Positions 18,431 to 28,115 of a stretch of DNA of 30,151 nt are shown one piece after another. The notes beneath the pieces are model-generated. The model did no database searches and had not been told where the DNA came from. It worked only from the letters and a program-made list of their open reading frames with translations. This DNA comes from a virus: the IMG/VR virus record IMGVR_UViG_3300025674_000241, positions 1 to 30,151 of that record; one strand, given 5' to 3'. The position numbers were made by a program, and so were the translations under genes. Within the stretch, counting starts at the first letter, position 1. Every line of letters begins with the position of its first letter.

Positions 18431-18682
18431 TTAGACCCACAGTTCGTCTGGACCATCTGTGACTAGCGGTTTAGGCCCCATCACATCAGTCACCTGTTGC
18501 CATATAGTTTCACCATCTTCATCTAATGATGCGATGTAAAGGATACCGGTTTCTGAATTAAGCCAGAAAGCACCGAGACCCGGAGGCTTGGGATAGCCCT
18601 GAACCTCCTGCTCGGTGCGTTTCGCTTTGTTCTTGTATTCGCTAATCAGACCTTTAAAGATCTGCCCGGCGTCTTCGGTCAT
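18431..18682 (-). CDS. Small protein, last gene of the MoxR-VWA operon
   Basis: An 83-residue protein: a charged N-terminal helix (residues 1-27) and a compact beta-rich part (GAFWLNSETGILYIASLDED, then GETIWQQV) ending in an acidic DGPDELWV tail. The WxNxxTGxLY pattern resembles short beta-hairpin display modules in phage proteins, but no family is certain. Its ATG overlaps the VWA stop by 4 bases, so it is probably translated with VWA and could be a regulator or substrate adaptor. Confidence 0.6.
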   Translation of the reverse strand: MTEDAGQIFKGLISEYKNKAKRTEQEVQGYPKPPGLGAFWLNSETGILYIASLDEDGETIWQQVTDVMGPKPLVTDGPDELWV

Positions 18683-20226
18683 CGGATTGCTTTCTGGATT
18701 ACATCGACGACATTATTGTCATCCGAGGTATCGACGAGGTAGCTCTCGTCACTAAACGTAGCCACAACAGGCGGCAGGTAGCGGGCGATGCAGAAGGTTG
18801 TCCATTGTGTACCTGTGTCGTTCTTGAAAGCATTGATCCTCTTGCTAAAGGCGTCTGTCACAGAGGATTCCCCGTCAGTGATCATCAGAACGTCGCTGTT
18901 CTTCTTGAGTTCTTCATTGGAGAGCGCGTGGCCGATGACGCTGTTGAAGTTGGTGCCGCCCCGTAGGGTCCAGTCACCTACAAAATCAAGCAGCTTGCCG
19001 CTGTCGGACTTGTTAGGCGCGATGGTGACTGAGTTCTGAATGTGCGTATCGAATAGGTTGATTTGCACAGTCCGGTTCTGCTTGAGAGCTTCTTCGGCAA
19101 TTACAAAAGCGATGGCTTTCGACCAGATCTCGTTTGAGCCGGTCATAGAACCCGACACGTCTACGTACATGACAATGGGGCCTTTGCCTAAGTCCTTACG
19201 GTTCGCCGTGTAATCTTTTGTGAGCAGTGTGCGTTCCGAATACTTCAAAGCAAATAGTGCGCGGCCTTGCGGCGTAGCCGCTAAAGCAATTTCGCTCGGA
19301 AATGCCTGCACCACGTTGTTGTCGAACTTGGCGCCAACGATTTTTTCGTAATTGCTTTTTGCCTTACGCGCCCGTTTACGTTCTGCCCACACGCGCCGCA
19401 GTGTGCCCAGGCGCTGAGCCACCTTGCGTAGCGTCTCGTTCCTAGACAGACGCTTAGCCAGCGCCTTCTTCTCGGCCAGAGTTCCTGTCGACGTGCCCGT
19501 GCCTGCTGTGTCCCCGAACAGGTTGCCTATCTGCTCCTGAAGCTTGTCGTGGGCCTTGTTAACCCGATCCACTGCATTACTTGCTTGAGCACCGACCTGT
19601 TCGGCTGCTTGCTGTACTGCATCGTTGATCTGGTTGATCGTCTCCTTAGCTTGTTGTCGCAAGCTTGCCGCTTTGTCGGTCTGACCTTCCTTCATTGCCT
19701 GCTTGAACTTCTCTCGAAGCTCCTGCAGCTTGTCGCCAGTTTGAGTTAGTAGCTCAACGTCGAACATTCCCTCGGTGATCGCCTGCTCGATCTCCTCTGC
19801 CAATTCGTTCAGCAGCATCACAGCGTTGTTGCCTGATGCGAACTGATCGCCCACGCAACGGTTAAGCAGATAGGGCCAGCCCGCTGCGTTAGTGAGCTCT
19901 TGCATGATCGCCCACCAGACGCCATTCTCCGGTTTGTAGCCTTCGGGCATCTTGGGCGGCAGACCGTCGTAGACCGAACGGAAGTAATCTTCGACTTCCT
20001 GTTCGCTGATCAGCCACTTAACGTTGTCTTCGTTGTACAGCCGCTCGAAAATTTCTTTTCCAAATCGGCTCAGCTGCGTAATTTTGTAAGTGTTGATCAA
20101 ATAATTAACACTGGGGCGCTGGTCCCGCACAAAATCTTCCCAGAGGAAGTCGGCGAGGGCGCTGCAGCTGAGCGTGAGCGGTTCGTTCTCGATGAGGCGA
20201 AGAAATTCGCGGCGTGTTTGGGTCAT
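18679..20226 (-). CDS. VWA-domain protein, ViaA/CoxE-like MoxR partner
   Basis: A 515-residue protein. Residues 1-150 are helical and mixed, about 155-300 form long coiled-coil helices (DKLQELREKFKQAMKEGQTD, IGNLFGDTAG), and 345-515 are a VWA domain. The metal-ion site is complete: D356-x-S358-x-S360 (VDVSGSMTG), T425 (RGGTNF), D451 (ITDGES). This helical-plus-C-terminal-VWA plan is that of ViaA and other proteins that work with MoxR ATPases, passing force from the ATPase onto a client. It overlaps its MoxR partner by 4 bases. No membrane segment or signal peptide. The client is unknown. Confidence 0.85.
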   Translation of the reverse strand: MTQTRREFLRLIENEPLTLSCSALADFLWEDFVRDQRPSVNYLINTYKITQLSRFGKEIFERLYNEDNVKWLISEQEVEDYFRSVYDGLPPKMPEGYKPENGVWWAIMQELTNAAGWPYLLNRCVGDQFASGNNAVMLLNELAEEIEQAITEGMFDVELLTQTGDKLQELREKFKQAMKEGQTDKAASLRQQAKETINQINDAVQQAAEQVGAQASNAVDRVNKAHDKLQEQIGNLFGDTAGTGTSTGTLAEKKALAKRLSRNETLRKVAQRLGTLRRVWAERKRARKAKSNYEKIVGAKFDNNVVQAFPSEIALAATPQGRALFALKYSERTLLTKDYTANRKDLGKGPIVMYVDVSGSMTGSNEIWSKAIAFVIAEEALKQNRTVQINLFDTHIQNSVTIAPNKSDSGKLLDFVGDWTLRGGTNFNSVIGHALSNEELKKNSDVLMITDGESSVTDAFSKRINAFKNDTGTQWTTFCIARYLPPVVATFSDESYLVDTSDDNNVVDVIQKAIR

Positions 20227-21410
20227 TGAGCTACCTCTGAGATTTCGCGTGCGATGGTGTCTAAGTTGTTTTGAAGTTGCTGTGTGAGCTTTACGCCGTT
20301 CATGCGATCGGATGCGCTGATCTTAACGCGATCACTGGTTAGCAGCTCATCGACTTTGGTTTTGATGGTGCCGATATCTTTGTGATACTTGCGGAGCATC
20401 ACAACGTATTCGTTCAGTCCTTCGAGATTCTGTCCTCGGCTGCGATGCACTGTGTTCTGAAACTCAGCCATCACACCGGACGCTGCCCGCTTGGCGTCGC
20501 CGAACAAACGAGCCGCCGTGGGAATCTCCTGATCAAGCACTTCGCGTATAACATCCTGATCGTCAGGAGAGTTATACACAATGTGTACGATGCTGTTGTG
20601 CATGTGCTCGGGATGCACTGTGTCGTCGCCCTGAACCAGAGCCCAGGCCCGCAGGAACTTAAGAATCTGAACGCGACGTCGGTCGCTGATCAGGATGCCT
20701 CGCTGAGCCAGGAGCTCCCACACAGAAGTGAACTTGTCTAGAAACTCATCGGAGATCTTGACCTTATCTACTTCGGCCTGAAGCTCGCTTAGTTGTTCGA
20801 GCGAAAGGTGCTCGCCGACGGCAGGACGCTGCTCGATGCCTAATGCCCATTGATCCAGAATCCGCTTTGAAGCGGGCTTCTTGAGCGCGTGGACCGTCGG
20901 ACGGAACAGAAAACGATCGCTGAAGGCTTGCAGCGACTCCTCCTCGGGCCAGCTGTTGGTTGCAGCGACGATGCTCTGCAGAGGAGTGATGATAGTTGAT
21001 TTGCCGTTGTTGAAAGTCCTCTCGTTTAGGAGGGTCAGTAAAGAGTTGAGGATGGCTGAGCTGCCACGGAACAGCTCGTCCAGGAAGCCGACGTGTGCCG
21101 AGGGGAGGTAACCATCGGTATCACGTTCGTATTCATCCTTCAGCAGTTTTGTTACTGCGACAGGTCCGAATACTTCCGAAGGGTCGGTAGTAGGAGTCAG
21201 CAAGTAACCGAAGTAGTTAACTCCTGTAATACCTTTGCAGATGTTGCGAACGAGATCGGATTTGCCGGTGCCAGGGGCACCGAGCAGAAATGCGTTTTGC
21301 CTGGAGATTAGACAGCTGAGCAGACCATCAATAACGTCTGTTCGTTCGAGCGTGGCGGAGTTAAGAGCGCTACGAAAGTTTTGAAGCTGAGTGAAGAGTT
21401 TGGTGTTCAT
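20223..21410 (-). CDS. MoxR-family AAA+ ATPase, RavA-like
   Basis: A 395-residue AAA+ protein. Walker A GAPGTGKS (44-51), Walker B GFLDE (108-112) followed by the RavA-type LFRGSSAILNSLLTLLNERT, sensor I N152 in AATNSWP, arginine finger about R166 in FSDRFLFR. After the AAA+ core (to about 300) a helical tail could contact the VWA partner. MoxR ATPases with VWA proteins remodel or insert metals into protein complexes, and related pairs occur in conflict systems and in N4-like phages. Start and stop both overlap neighbours by 4 bases. Confidence 0.92.
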   Translation of the reverse strand: MNTKLFTQLQNFRSALNSATLERTDVIDGLLSCLISRQNAFLLGAPGTGKSDLVRNICKGITGVNYFGYLLTPTTDPSEVFGPVAVTKLLKDEYERDTDGYLPSAHVGFLDELFRGSSAILNSLLTLLNERTFNNGKSTIITPLQSIVAATNSWPEEESLQAFSDRFLFRPTVHALKKPASKRILDQWALGIEQRPAVGEHLSLEQLSELQAEVDKVKISDEFLDKFTSVWELLAQRGILISDRRRVQILKFLRAWALVQGDDTVHPEHMHNSIVHIVYNSPDDQDVIREVLDQEIPTAARLFGDAKRAASGVMAEFQNTVHRSRGQNLEGLNEYVVMLRKYHKDIGTIKTKVDELLTSDRVKISASDRMNGVKLTQQLQNNLDTIAREISEVAQ

Positions 21411-21610
21411 TTGTTTAGGGGCTTAGGGAATTGAGCTTGAACGGATTTGATGTTTACCTCGCCGGCGTATACACCGCTAGCAGCAGCTAGACGTTTACAC
21501 GCTGAATCGAAATCAACAAAAGTGATCGCTTCGAAGGGATCGGTCGTAGTTGTGCGGTCTTCAGTTAAGTAACCTTTGTCAGTTTGAAATACGTAGAGGG
21601 TTCGGTACAT
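21407..21610 (-). CDS. Small conserved-position protein of MoxR operon
   Basis: A 67-residue protein (MYRTLYVFQTDKGYLTEDRT, then a helical SACKRLAAASGVYAGEV). It has a compact beta-alpha-beta look and no recognised family. Its ATG shares one base with the upstream stop (TGATG) and its own stop overlaps the MoxR ATG (ATGA), so it is translated within the operon. It may be a small adaptor. Confidence 0.6.
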   Translation of the reverse strand: MYRTLYVFQTDKGYLTEDRTTTTDPFEAITFVDFDSACKRLAAASGVYAGEVNIKSVQAQFPKPLNK

Positions 21611-22806
21611 CAGAAGTCAACTGCAATTTCAGTGTTTGGGTTGTCTTTAACGTCAGCAATCAACTCATCGAGATTGTCTGCCGACGCGGAGATAAGTTCT
21701 TTGCGGCGTTCGATCAGTTTACGAAGGTGCTTGGAGCGTTGTTCGTAAACATCAATCTCAGTGTTTGCTTCTGCTACTAGCAGATTCAGGTGAGAGATGT
21801 TCTCGGTTGATTTAATGCGTTCACATAGGGTTTTATACTTAGAAGAGAGTGCAAGGGATTGCTTGAGCTTTTCGAGACCCTTCGATTGATCTCGATTGTT
21901 GCAGATGGATTCCAACTCAGAGCGAACTGAGGATTGAATCACCTGAAATTCTTGCTGCGCCTGCCTGTAGGTGGATTTGTCGGGCGACGTCAGCATTTTG
22001 CCGCACTCCAAAAGCCGCGTGGACAGCACCGCTAGCTCCTCAAAACCCGGAACGGAATCGCTGATGAGCTTAAGTTTGTTTGCTGTAATCTCCCACGAAC
22101 CGCGCTTCTTATCGGAGCCTGTTTGCTGTTTACCAATCTTTGTGATGTTGCGAGCATCAAGATCATCTAGCAATTCGGCACCCATTGTGAGTGCTCGATC
22201 AGCAGCTGAGGCTTTAGCAGCTTCAAGAACTTGCGCAGTGTTGATGTTGTTCTCGTAAGCGAGGAGTGATTGAATGTCGCCCTGGACAGGCTCATCGGCA
22301 ACCTCAAGAACAACAGGCAGAGGACCTACAACCGAAACACGAATCGGAGCGTGGTACGCAGCTTTTGTAGGAAATACTTTCATGTATGCCTGGAAAGCAA
22401 GATCGTATTCTTGCTCGTCTTCAAACAGCGGTCGAAGAATGTTTTCTGCTGTTTCTTGCCAAGCTGCGTACTCTTGATCCCAGAGTTCACGAAGTTCGTT
22501 GTTAGCTACCTCTGTCGCATACTTGATGTCTTTGATGTATTCGTGTGCTTTGTAGAAGTAGTTTTCCGTTACGAAGTGTGCGTCGCCGAAGTGAATTGTG
22601 CACTCGTCGTACAGTTCACGTTGAAGAGAACGAAGCGAATCAAGTTTGCCCTTTAGTGCATTAGAAAGCGACGGGCGAATAGAAACTGTGTTCTTCTCTT
22701 TGAGTGTTCGTATTGTTTGGTCCGGTAGCTTCAGATCATCGAAAGCGATCTGCACGCTCTGACGGACTGTGCCGGAGATTGAACAAGCAAGAAAGTAGTG
22801 ATTCAT
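21610..22806 (-). CDS. Large helical protein, DUF3150-like, third partner of MoxR-VWA
   Basis: A 398-residue protein from ATG 22804-22806 (MNHYFLACSISGTVRQSV). It is mostly long charged helices: residues about 50-150 (LRSLQRELYDECTIHFGD, then VANNELRELWDQEYAAW) and 290-390 (a KSLALSSKYKTL-like pattern to ERRKELISASADNLDEL). The N-terminal third resembles the DUF3150 family, which in integrative elements lies beside MoxR and VWA genes; that match is by overall pattern only. The start overlaps the 49-residue peptide stop by 4 bases. It may bridge the ATPase and VWA to a target. Confidence 0.6.
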   Translation of the reverse strand: MNHYFLACSISGTVRQSVQIAFDDLKLPDQTIRTLKEKNTVSIRPSLSNALKGKLDSLRSLQRELYDECTIHFGDAHFVTENYFYKAHEYIKDIKYATEVANNELRELWDQEYAAWQETAENILRPLFEDEQEYDLAFQAYMKVFPTKAAYHAPIRVSVVGPLPVVLEVADEPVQGDIQSLLAYENNINTAQVLEAAKASAADRALTMGAELLDDLDARNITKIGKQQTGSDKKRGSWEITANKLKLISDSVPGFEELAVLSTRLLECGKMLTSPDKSTYRQAQQEFQVIQSSVRSELESICNNRDQSKGLEKLKQSLALSSKYKTLCERIKSTENISHLNLLVAEANTEIDVYEQRSKHLRKLIERRKELISASADNLDELIADVKDNPNTEIAVDF

Positions 22807-22952
22807 TGTTTGCACTCGATTGAAGTTTCGTTAGTGGGATGTTGATGGTGGGCTGTCAGAGAAGGATCTACTCCTACGAGACCCAGGGCAGCAAACGCCA
22901 TACCAATCGAAGCGATAAGTACAGCGCCTGCATTAGCTACACGATCACTCAT
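22803..22952 (-). CDS. 49-residue single-pass membrane peptide in MoxR operon
   Basis: Short frame MSDRVANAGAVLIASIGMAF, then AALGLVGVDPSL, then a His/Pro-rich tail ending ECKQ. One transmembrane helix covers about residues 8-28. Its ATG overlaps the upstream stop (ATGA) and its stop overlaps the next ATG (ATGA). Both overlaps and the clear hydrophobic helix make it a convincing small gene. It could anchor the MoxR complex at the membrane. Confidence 0.65.
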   Translation of the reverse strand: MSDRVANAGAVLIASIGMAFAALGLVGVDPSLTAHHQHPTNETSIECKQ

Positions 22953-23302
22953 TTGAGTCGGGTAAATGCGAGAGAAATTTTGTCCGTGACTTGGTCACAT
23001 TCGCCTGACTGAACCAGAAGTTCAGCCTGCTGCTTCAACTTAAGCTTTGCCAGCTTGAGTTGTTGCTCAAGGTCTTCAACCTTGGCGGCTAGTTTCTCAA
23101 GTTTCGAGTGCGGCGTGGGCTTTCTGCTTACCCGCACAATGATGTTCGCTTTGTACTGAGGGAACTTGAACTTACTTTCGGCTCCGCTGAAGAGACCGAG
23201 ATCGAAACCCTCGCTTTCCGCTTGCTGAACGTCAGCCAGCAGATTGTCTCGGGCAGCTTCGAAGGGAGTCCCGAAAGCTTCGTTCACTTGAACTAAAGCC
23301 AC
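22949..23302 (-). CDS. Coiled-coil protein, first gene of MoxR operon, 5' end disrupted
   Basis: A 117-residue protein from GTG 23300-23302 (MALVQVNEAFGTPFEAARDN). The C-terminal half is a long coiled coil (KLEKLAAKVEDLEQQLKLAK). The GTG has no ribosome site. Upstream, a 17-bp tandem duplication (23350-23383) shifts the frame. Removing one copy joins this frame to the ATG at 23388, behind a leader like others in the window, adding MTIKLPSILKLADTAASAWS and three more residues. The annotated frame is thus probably a truncated or phase-shifted form. Function unknown. Confidence 0.6.
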   Translation of the reverse strand: MALVQVNEAFGTPFEAARDNLLADVQQAESEGFDLGLFSGAESKFKFPQYKANIIVRVSRKPTPHSKLEKLAAKVEDLEQQLKLAKLKLKQQAELLVQSGECDQVTDKISLAFTRLK

Positions 23303-23349
23303 GTCGCATTCGGACCAGGCTGATGCTGCTGTGTCAGCGAGCTTGAGGA

Positions 23350-23383
23350 TAGAAGGTAGTTTGATCTAGAAGGTAGTTTGATC
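23350..23383. repeat. 17-bp tandem duplication causing a frameshift
   Basis: TAGAAGGTAGTTTGATC occurs twice in direct contact (23350-23366 and 23367-23383). Seventeen is not a multiple of three. With both copies, translation from ATG 23388 stops after 31 codons; with one copy it continues in frame into the 22949-23302 gene. Confidence 0.9.
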
Positions 23384-23388
23384 GTCAT

Positions 23389-23483
23389 GGTGATGTGATG
23401 TTGTTGGATGCGCACCACGTTCAGGGCCGGTGCCGCCCGTAAATAGTAGCACTGCAGAGCAGTCCTGTAAATAGGTGCGCCTG
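23389..23483 (-). promoter_or_regulatory. Structured leader of the MoxR operon
   Basis: In the leftward strand GCGCACC (23474-23480) can pair with GGTGCGC (23410-23416), enclosing ACTGC-TCT-GCAGT (23451-23463) and a GGGC/GCCC stem, giving a possible three-way junction. The junction strands share CTATTTAC-A/G-GG. It ends in AACAACATCACATCACC before ATG 23388, a leader sequence repeated elsewhere in the window. Confidence 0.45.
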
Positions 23484-24173: not shown

Positions 24174-24246
24174 TGGGGATCGTGAGGATCGAACTCACCT
24201 AAGGCGGATTATGAGTCCGCTGCATTCACCAGATTGCTAGACCCCC
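24174..24246 (-). tRNA. tRNA with anticodon CAT (Met or Ile2)
   Basis: Full cloverleaf on the - strand: acceptor GGGGGTC/GATCCCC (one G-T pair) with discriminator A, D-arm with GG in the loop, anticodon stem GCGGA/TCCGC around CTCATAA (anticodon CAT), and T-arm GTGAG-TTCGATC-CTCAC. CCA is not encoded. It could be elongator tRNA-Met or the CAT tRNA-Ile that needs lysidine; the sequence alone does not decide. Confidence 0.93.
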
Positions 24247-25997: not shown

Positions 25998-26491
25998 TTA
26001 ACAGGAAGACCTGTAATAAAAGTCTGCATCGGGCAGAGTGTTGATGATCTCGATGAACTTGTCGCGTGCCTGTTTGAGAATTAAATGATCTTGGTCTGTG
26101 TGTCTGCGATCGTAGTGTTTGAGTAGATGCCCCCAATCGGGATTAGGAAACATACAGTCTATAGGATCCTCTCCATCGATAACTAACGTTGCGTCTTCGA
26201 TGAACTCCTCCAGAACTTTGGTGTCTACATAACAATCGGCGGCGTCGTTGTCAGCTTGTGCGTGCTCGATTATGTAATCGTGCAGCCAGCTTGTGCGTGC
26301 TCGATTATGTAATCGTGCAGCCAATGTGTGTTGCGCCAGTGCATCAATACGATGCGTACTGTAACTTGTTTGAAGTTAACTAGGCTGTCGGGCACACCGC
26401 ACAACTGCAAAGCTTGTGTAGCTTTGTCTGCTGTGTTGTCCCATGTATCTGAGAAGTAACAGTCTACTTCTAGGTACTGATCGAGTCCCAT
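25998..26491 (-). pseudogene. Phage protein with C-terminal DFYYRSS motif, split by a tandem duplication
   Basis: Two frames that belong to one protein. The first part starts at ATG 26489-26491 (MGLDQYLEVDCYFSDTW, then FKQVTVRIVLMHWRNTHWLH) and stops soon after the duplication. The second part continues NDAADCYVDTKVLEEFIEDA to the end DADFYYRSSC. A 35-bp tandem duplication (26253-26322) shifts the frame by two. Removing one copy gives an intact protein of about 152 residues. The order matches a widespread small phage family whose members end DFYYQSSW. It is either inactivated, phase-variable or an assembly artefact. Confidence 0.8.
26253..26322. repeat. 35-bp tandem duplication causing a frameshift
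   Basis: Two identical 35-base units in direct contact (26253-26287, 26288-26322), starting AGCTTGTGCGTGCTCG. Thirty-five is 3n+2, so the reading frame is lost; both copies encode WLHDYIIEHAQA in one frame. Confidence 0.92.
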
Positions 26492-26518
26492 GATGTTGTT
26501 GTGATTGTGTGAGTCGGC

Positions 26519-26532
26519 CCCGCGTTAGCGGG
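26519..26532. repeat. Stop-codon hairpin (copy 2)
   Basis: CCCGC-GTTA-GCGGG. In the leftward transcript the loop is TAAC and contains the TAA stop of the 26525-26692 gene. No U-tract. Confidence 0.75.
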
Positions 26533-27014: not shown

Positions 27015-27046
27015 TGTGTGATGTTGTTGGTAGTAGATGAAGGCGC

Positions 27047-27060
27047 CCCGCGTTAGCGGG
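27047..27060. repeat. Stop-codon hairpin (copy 3)
   Basis: CCCGC-GTTA-GCGGG, one base from the TGA of the 27062-27277 gene. No U-tract. Same sequence as copy 2. Confidence 0.75.
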
Positions 27061-27061
27061 A

Positions 27062-27277
27062 TCAATCAAACTCGCTAAGGTCTACATCTATAGGGCGCTC
27101 GATGATCTTGCGGCCCGTATCATGTACCTGCGACGTGATAACTACACGACCACACAGTGAATTGTATGCAGCCGGACATTCGCGCATCAGATGGTTGCGC
27201 ATCTCTGATGTCATGTAGTTGTTAACAACGTGCAGGATCTGGTCTTTGTGGAAGTCACGGATGTGGTTGTACATCAT
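27062..27277 (-). CDS. Small hypothetical protein
   Basis: A 71-residue protein MMYNHIRDFHKDQILHVVNN, then a RECPAAYNSLCGRVVITSQ strand and an acidic end LSEFD. Helix first, beta second. The ATG overlaps the preceding stop (ATGA); a second ATG follows directly. No family is recognised. Confidence 0.58.
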   Translation of the reverse strand: MMYNHIRDFHKDQILHVVNNYMTSEMRNHLMRECPAAYNSLCGRVVITSQVHDTGRKIIERPIDVDLSEFD

Positions 27278-27432
27278 AAGTAACCAAGTTGATTGAAGTT
27301 ATTTACAACTATTTGGCAGGCGAGGGACTTAACTTCGTCCAGATAATCTACTTCCCCAAATTGTGACTCAAGAAGGCAGATCAGATCCTCTTGAAGCTGC
27401 TCACGGACAGAAATAATGTCGGCGGTGTTCAT
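27274..27432 (-). CDS. Small helical protein
   Basis: A 52-residue protein from ATG 27430-27432 (MNTADIISVREQLQEDLICL), all helical and acidic. Its start lies 2 bases after the previous stop and its stop overlaps the next ATG. No family is recognised. Confidence 0.52.
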   Translation of the reverse strand: MNTADIISVREQLQEDLICLLESQFGEVDYLDEVKSLACQIVVNNFNQLGYL

Positions 27433-27434
27433 GT

Positions 27435-27629
27435 TCAGAATGTGATGGTTTGCTCGAAGGATGAAAATGTCTTGGCGCGTAAGTCTTCCAGCATAGTTAG
27501 ATGTTCGCGTGCCCAATCACCACCGGGATGATCTGGCGTTTCAGCAACTAACTGCAAGAGATCTTGCTCGTAGGCACGAATCATGCGGCGCATGAAGTCT
27601 CTATTTAAGTGTGTGCGAGTGTCGTACAT
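27435..27629 (-). CDS. Small hypothetical protein
   Basis: A 64-residue protein MYDTRTHLNRDFMRRMIRAY, then LLQLVAETPDHPGGDWAREH and a helical end. Two helices with a Pro/Gly turn. The ATG directly follows the upstream stop (TAAATG). No family is recognised. Confidence 0.55.
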   Translation of the reverse strand: MYDTRTHLNRDFMRRMIRAYEQDLLQLVAETPDHPGGDWAREHLTMLEDLRAKTFSSFEQTITF

Positions 27630-27802: not shown

Positions 27803-28075
27803 TTACAGGTTGCGGAGATGAGAATAGCCAGGGACTTGGTAAGCATAGTCCGGCCCAGGCAATGTACGCAATAGGTGACGATAAGCTGCAACTGTACACT
27901 CAATGCGCGGCGCATTGTATGCGGCCTCACGCCAGATTCCAGGGACAGCGAGGTTACCTAGGTAACCCTCATCCCATGCGGCTACAGCTACATCGTCAAG
28001 ATCAAGTAGAACATAACAACGTTGAGGGTTACCGTTGCGATCGTTAGGTGCACAGTGATGTTGAATGGTTGCCAT
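27803..28075 (-). CDS. Hypothetical phage protein
   Basis: A 90-residue protein from ATG 28073-28075 (MATIQHHCAPNDRNGNPQRC), then YVLLDLDDVAVAAWDEGYLG and a C-terminal GPDYAYQVPGYSHLR. The opening APNDRNGNPQRC-YVLL is a recurring phage sequence pattern without assigned function. It begins about 28 bases after a stop-codon hairpin. Confidence 0.6.
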   Translation of the reverse strand: MATIQHHCAPNDRNGNPQRCYVLLDLDDVAVAAWDEGYLGNLAVPGIWREAAYNAPRIECTVAAYRHLLRTLPGPDYAYQVPGYSHLRNL

Positions 28076-28102
28076 GATGTTGGTGTGATTGTGTGAGTTG
28101 GC

Positions 28103-28115
28103 CCCGCGAAGCGGG
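28103..28115. repeat. Stop-codon hairpin (copy 4)
   Basis: CCCGC-GAA-GCGGG directly against the TAA of the 28116-28448 gene. No U-tract. Loop and stem are identical to copy 1, including the GCGAAGC heptamer. Confidence 0.75.

Follow-up and report, generated by a model that had tools for sequence, protein, structure and literature searches.

The window analyzed here is a 30,151-bp viral record, a metagenomic contig that we assign to a bacteriophage because it carries endolysin, primase and DNA polymerase matches. Its minus strand contains an operon (positions 18679–23388) that opens with gene 1 and continues with gene 2 (22803–22952, 49 aa), the start of which overlaps the gene 1 stop by 4 bp (ATGA), gene 3 (21610–22815, 401 aa), which is conserved in the operon and has no family match, a gene encoding a MoxR-type AAA+ ATPase (20223–21410, PF20030 bpMoxR) and a gene encoding a VWA-domain protein (18679–20226). 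The MoxR AAA+ gene adjoins the VWA gene in a conserved arrangement, and in the 22 loci examined gene 1 is followed by the 401-aa gene, MoxR and VWA in that order wherever the stretch is long enough. Gene 1 had been proposed from the sequence alone to be the first gene of a MoxR operon; the MoxR and VWA genes indeed lie downstream of it, on the same strand and in the same order in relatives. PADLOC returned marginal matches only, to the VWA protein. The operon is in phages often followed by genes for a 255-aa protein and DNA polymerase A. A tRNA-Met (CAT) gene is located at 24174–24246 on the minus strand and is likewise found upstream of gene 1 in the related sequences G001 and L029.

RavA-ViaA and bpMoxR systems are described as MoxR-VWA operons in the excerpts of two reports used for comparison (PMC10585395, PMC7159879). 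As in the operons of those excerpts, a MoxR-class AAA+ ATPase stands beside a VWA protein in the window; unlike them, the window operon resides in a phage, includes extra genes (for a 140-aa helical and a 401-aa protein) and carries a leader that is conserved. A further difference is that the window operon yielded no identifiable beta-propeller gene.

Near its 5′ end, gene 1 contains an exact tandem duplication of 17 bp. The sequence-only reading that prompted this analysis had described such a pair, and the unit TAGAAGGTAGTTTGATC is present twice at 23350–23383 in identical, directly adjacent copies. On the minus strand, the copy nearest the ATG (GATCAAACTACCTTCTA, 23367–23383) lies where relatives have a single copy, and the second identical copy (23350–23366) meets it in the junction CTTCTAGATC, which brings a new TAG into the frame of the gene 1 body. 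When the window was resampled with a first-order Markov model, 0.05 exact tandem pairs with a unit of at least 10 bp were expected per sequence, versus the two observed; the 17-bp pair is far beyond chance. The frameshift and early stop that had been predicted were also borne out. Seventeen leaves a remainder of two on division by three, and the extra 17 bp puts gene 1 out of frame after codon 7, with an open frame behind the stop. From the minus-strand ATG at 23388, translation would yield MTIKLPSRSNYLLSSSSLTQQHQPGPNATWL and then terminate, a truncated reading frame of 31 codons and a stop (23293–23388). The remainder of gene 1 in its original frame (22949–23362, KLPSIL... to the stop) corresponds to residues 4–140 of the intact 140-aa protein of relatives. 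Within it, the 117-residue frame noted earlier runs from a GTG at 23302 (22949–23302) and is open back to the junction TAG; this GTG would be a possible restart, and it is not conserved as a start codon in relatives. One copy of the unit had been expected to restore the gene, and relatives with one copy do read without interruption as MTIKLPSILKLADTAA....

A protein similarity search with gene 1 identified 28 related loci in 27 viral contigs, all of which have one copy of the 17-bp unit and an ORF of ~140 aa from the matching start (L052 is cut by the contig end and the start in L040 is GTG). Twelve further contigs, not found before, were retrieved by a DNA-pattern scan with the upstream leader alone, each again with one copy and an intact gene 1; the ORF downstream of the leader in these contigs is 140–141 aa long and its product is 43–59% identical to the L026 protein (eight compared). 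One-copy forms in relatives, proposed beforehand as a check on the duplication, were hence seen in 39 of 39 related contigs, with the gene intact in each, and the single-copy state with an uninterrupted ORF is ancestral. Relatives with two copies and a conserved GTG at 23302, the pattern named in advance as contrary to a frameshift, did not appear: relatives have one copy and the GTG is not conserved. The duplicated junction string has no exact match in the IMG/VR viral_contigs, while the single-copy string is present in both close relatives. Because G001 and G002 show no difference across 8,278 bp, they were counted as one relative. No relatives of gene 1 were detected in plasmids (nucleotide search), a phage collection (protein search) or species genomes.

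An alignment of 21 gene 1 proteins has 37 invariant columns, and over the remaining 414 bp of gene 1 the window differs from its closest relative, L026, at three synonymous and no nonsynonymous sites, so that apart from the duplication the gene shows no decay. Comparative sequence data of this kind indicate that gene 1 is a real gene with a predicted 140-aa product, that its start is the ATG at 23388 and that it is, as judged from these substitutions, otherwise fully constrained. With only three synonymous differences, the duplication must be either very recent or absent from the organism, that is, false. Two AlphaFold models of the 140-aa protein are helical and have low global confidence (pTM 0.26 and 0.28).

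Upstream of gene 1, the window has a sigma-70-like promoter, TTTACA-17-TACTAT (23443–23471, minus strand), in an arrangement similar to that of the closest relatives. Between this promoter and the start codon lies a conserved 5′ leader, GGGCGGCACCGGCCCTGAACGTGGTGC (23412–23438, minus strand), a candidate hairpin or pseudoknot RNA with the layout GGGCGGCACCGGCCC-N2-AACGTGGTGC. Every relative whose sequence extends upstream of gene 1 has the leader there (L026–L053, L054, L055, L086, L103, L114, L125, L126 and L135); it is always found upstream of the same 140-aa gene family, and the pattern search by leader alone retrieves new members. The suggestion that the leader is shared with other genes was therefore right in one sense and wrong in another: GGGCGGCACCGGCCC occurs only once in the window, and the leader is shared by the same gene across the family. 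A different repeated leader, CGCGGGGC... ACAACATC before the ATG (26488–26524, 27016–27052 and 28072–28108, minus strand), is common to small genes; it is without an obvious Shine-Dalgarno sequence, and similar stretches occur several times in relatives.

The gene 1 leader has no match to any Rfam model. In 28 sequences, its outer pair appears as G-C, A-T or C-G and its inner pair as C-G or T-A, and two more distant members break the pairs as aligned. The covariation score was reached by 12 of 500 shuffles, a value that for 19 distinct leaders of few distinct types is suggestive only. No two-sided compensatory change was found in the second, pseudoknot stem, and, folded as a single sequence, the leader did not exceed shuffles in stability. 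In the first stem the two halves lie either 7 or 9 nt apart, and the linker also varies between leaders, variation that would suit an RNA better than a fixed DNA operator. The leader may be a new phage regulatory RNA, and we offer this as a lead. More specifically, at close to but below even odds in our estimate, it could be an undescribed phage cis-acting RNA, a 5′-terminal hairpin and perhaps a pseudoknot, that works only with the 140-aa family.

A second exact tandem duplication, of 35 bp in two copies, is present at 26252–26321 on the minus strand. It too is out of frame and private to the window, and it breaks a gene (25998–26491, minus strand) into the ORFs 26270–26491 and 25998–26324, where relatives have one uninterrupted ORF of 152 aa; in L021, L022 and L023, the three related loci checked, the 35-bp unit is single-copy and this ORF is whole. 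Apart from the 17-bp pair, the 35-bp pair was the only one of such size in the window to be detected by TRF and by a scan for exact repeats in direct contact. In a scan for frame breaks that used 930 ORFs of relatives, the 35-bp case was the sole gene split in this way. What remains of gene 1 ahead of the 17-bp duplication is too short to register in the frame-break scan, and the break there is known from the alignment. The scan's other flags came from plus-strand ORFs that overlie genes on the minus strand and from one difference near 27.3 kb, which was rejected as a duplication and looks like ordinary gene fusion or splitting. Two small ORFs at 27065–27516 on the minus strand are one fused ORF of 99–100 aa in G001, G002 and L004.

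Related loci served as a control for the frequency of such events. Across ~1.2 Mb, exact tandem arrays with a unit of at least 14 bp were found in four loci (L033 with a 21-bp array, L110 with a four-copy 21-bp array, and two with arrays built from simple 6- or 9-bp units), and none of these four is a plain two-copy out-of-frame duplication. The control loci overlap and are partly redundant and the numbers are small; within that limit, two duplications of that plain out-of-frame kind within 30 kb are out of line with the control. That a second private, frame-breaking duplication is present suggests a cause that affected the contig as a whole. The 17-bp duplication is best read as a private one-off of this contig, without a function of its own.

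In our judgment, at somewhat better than an even chance, the duplication is most likely an error in the assembled record. Two overlapping sequence ends would have been joined with their overlap left unmerged; such a join would put identical copies of any length side by side, and it would have happened again, over 35 bp, at 26252–26321. Unmerged assembly overlaps would naturally yield exact adjacent copies lacking junction homology. The window case resembles them in its exact adjacent copies, arbitrary length, absence of junction homology, privacy and occurrence more than once in a contig. The 17-bp pair has a junction register freedom of 0 bp and the 35-bp pair one of 2 bp, and slippage between pre-existing short repeats is therefore not evident. 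An error is also consistent with the single-copy, intact ORF in all related contigs, with more than one such event in the record, above a background that is small and redundant, and with the lack of any other gene break of this kind in the window. The second duplication, together with the absence of its plain out-of-frame kind from the control loci, leads us to favor a contig error over a fresh mutation. Assembly, rather than replication, is the source we infer for duplications whose exactness, privacy, frame effect and recurrence in the contig are directly observed. Several features run against an assembly error. At 34 and 70 bp in total, the arrays would fit within a typical short read, and a large-k assembler would thus need reads containing them; the contig has neither Ns nor any other trace of a join at either site; and identity to G001 is similar on either side of 23350. 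The last result also gives no support to a strain chimera at 23350. A literature search on such duplications found no specific precedent.

A real and very recent mutation draws support from the duplicate standing in the assembled consensus and being shorter than a read. Here, spontaneous 17-bp and 35-bp tandem duplications in this phage lineage would have knocked out gene 1 and the small gene, and translation of gene 2 could also fall because normal termination at the 4-bp stop/start overlap (ATGA) would be lost. We regard this as a serious possibility that falls appreciably short of even odds. Out-of-frame short tandem duplications are known spontaneous frameshift mutations, and the window case is like them in its exact adjacent copies, its lengths that are not multiples of three and its single-copy ancestor; the intact remainder of gene 1, as expected of a fresh event, and the visible overlap of genes 1 and 2 are also in keeping with a mutation. 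However, this one contig has two events of a single rare, frame-breaking class and no further broken gene, and there is little or no microhomology at the junctions. Moreover, gene 1 is kept by every relative, and a knock-out should therefore not easily rise to consensus. Reversion by loss of a copy would be possible, as in any short tandem repeat, and would be incidental.

A phase-variable switch, in which the 17-bp repeat gains and loses copies and so toggles the first gene of the operon, is very improbable. The repeat is situated just after the start codon, its copies are exact and adjacent, and a length not divisible by three would change the frame with copy number, as in phase-variable contingency genes with a repeat near the gene start. 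Such loci normally hold many short units, whereas the window has only two copies of a long unit; the site is free of any repeat in all 39 related contigs, and a site that varies in no relative is unlikely to be a switch. In addition, slippage would have no repeat to work on in the one-copy sequence, and the 35-bp event makes clear that gene 1 is not alone in having this property. Among the three readings originally proposed, a private event, either recent or erroneous, accordingly stands with the one-copy relatives, and the reversible switch does not. Least probable of all, with hardly any weight, is a true start at GTG 23302 or another internal codon that would place the duplication harmlessly in an untranslated leader: the GTG does open the 117-aa frame, but it is not GTG in more distant relatives, the upstream start and first 23 residues are conserved, the promoter and leader directly precede ATG 23388, and the reading is already contradicted by conservation at the level of sequence.

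With at least two private tandem duplications in the contig, its gene breaks should not be taken as biology without the reads. Together, gene 1, the leader before it and the MoxR-VWA genes make up a phage module that is conserved. If the leader is indeed a cis-acting RNA, it could, for example, be a site through which control of the MoxR-VWA operon is exerted by the 140-aa protein or a ligand.
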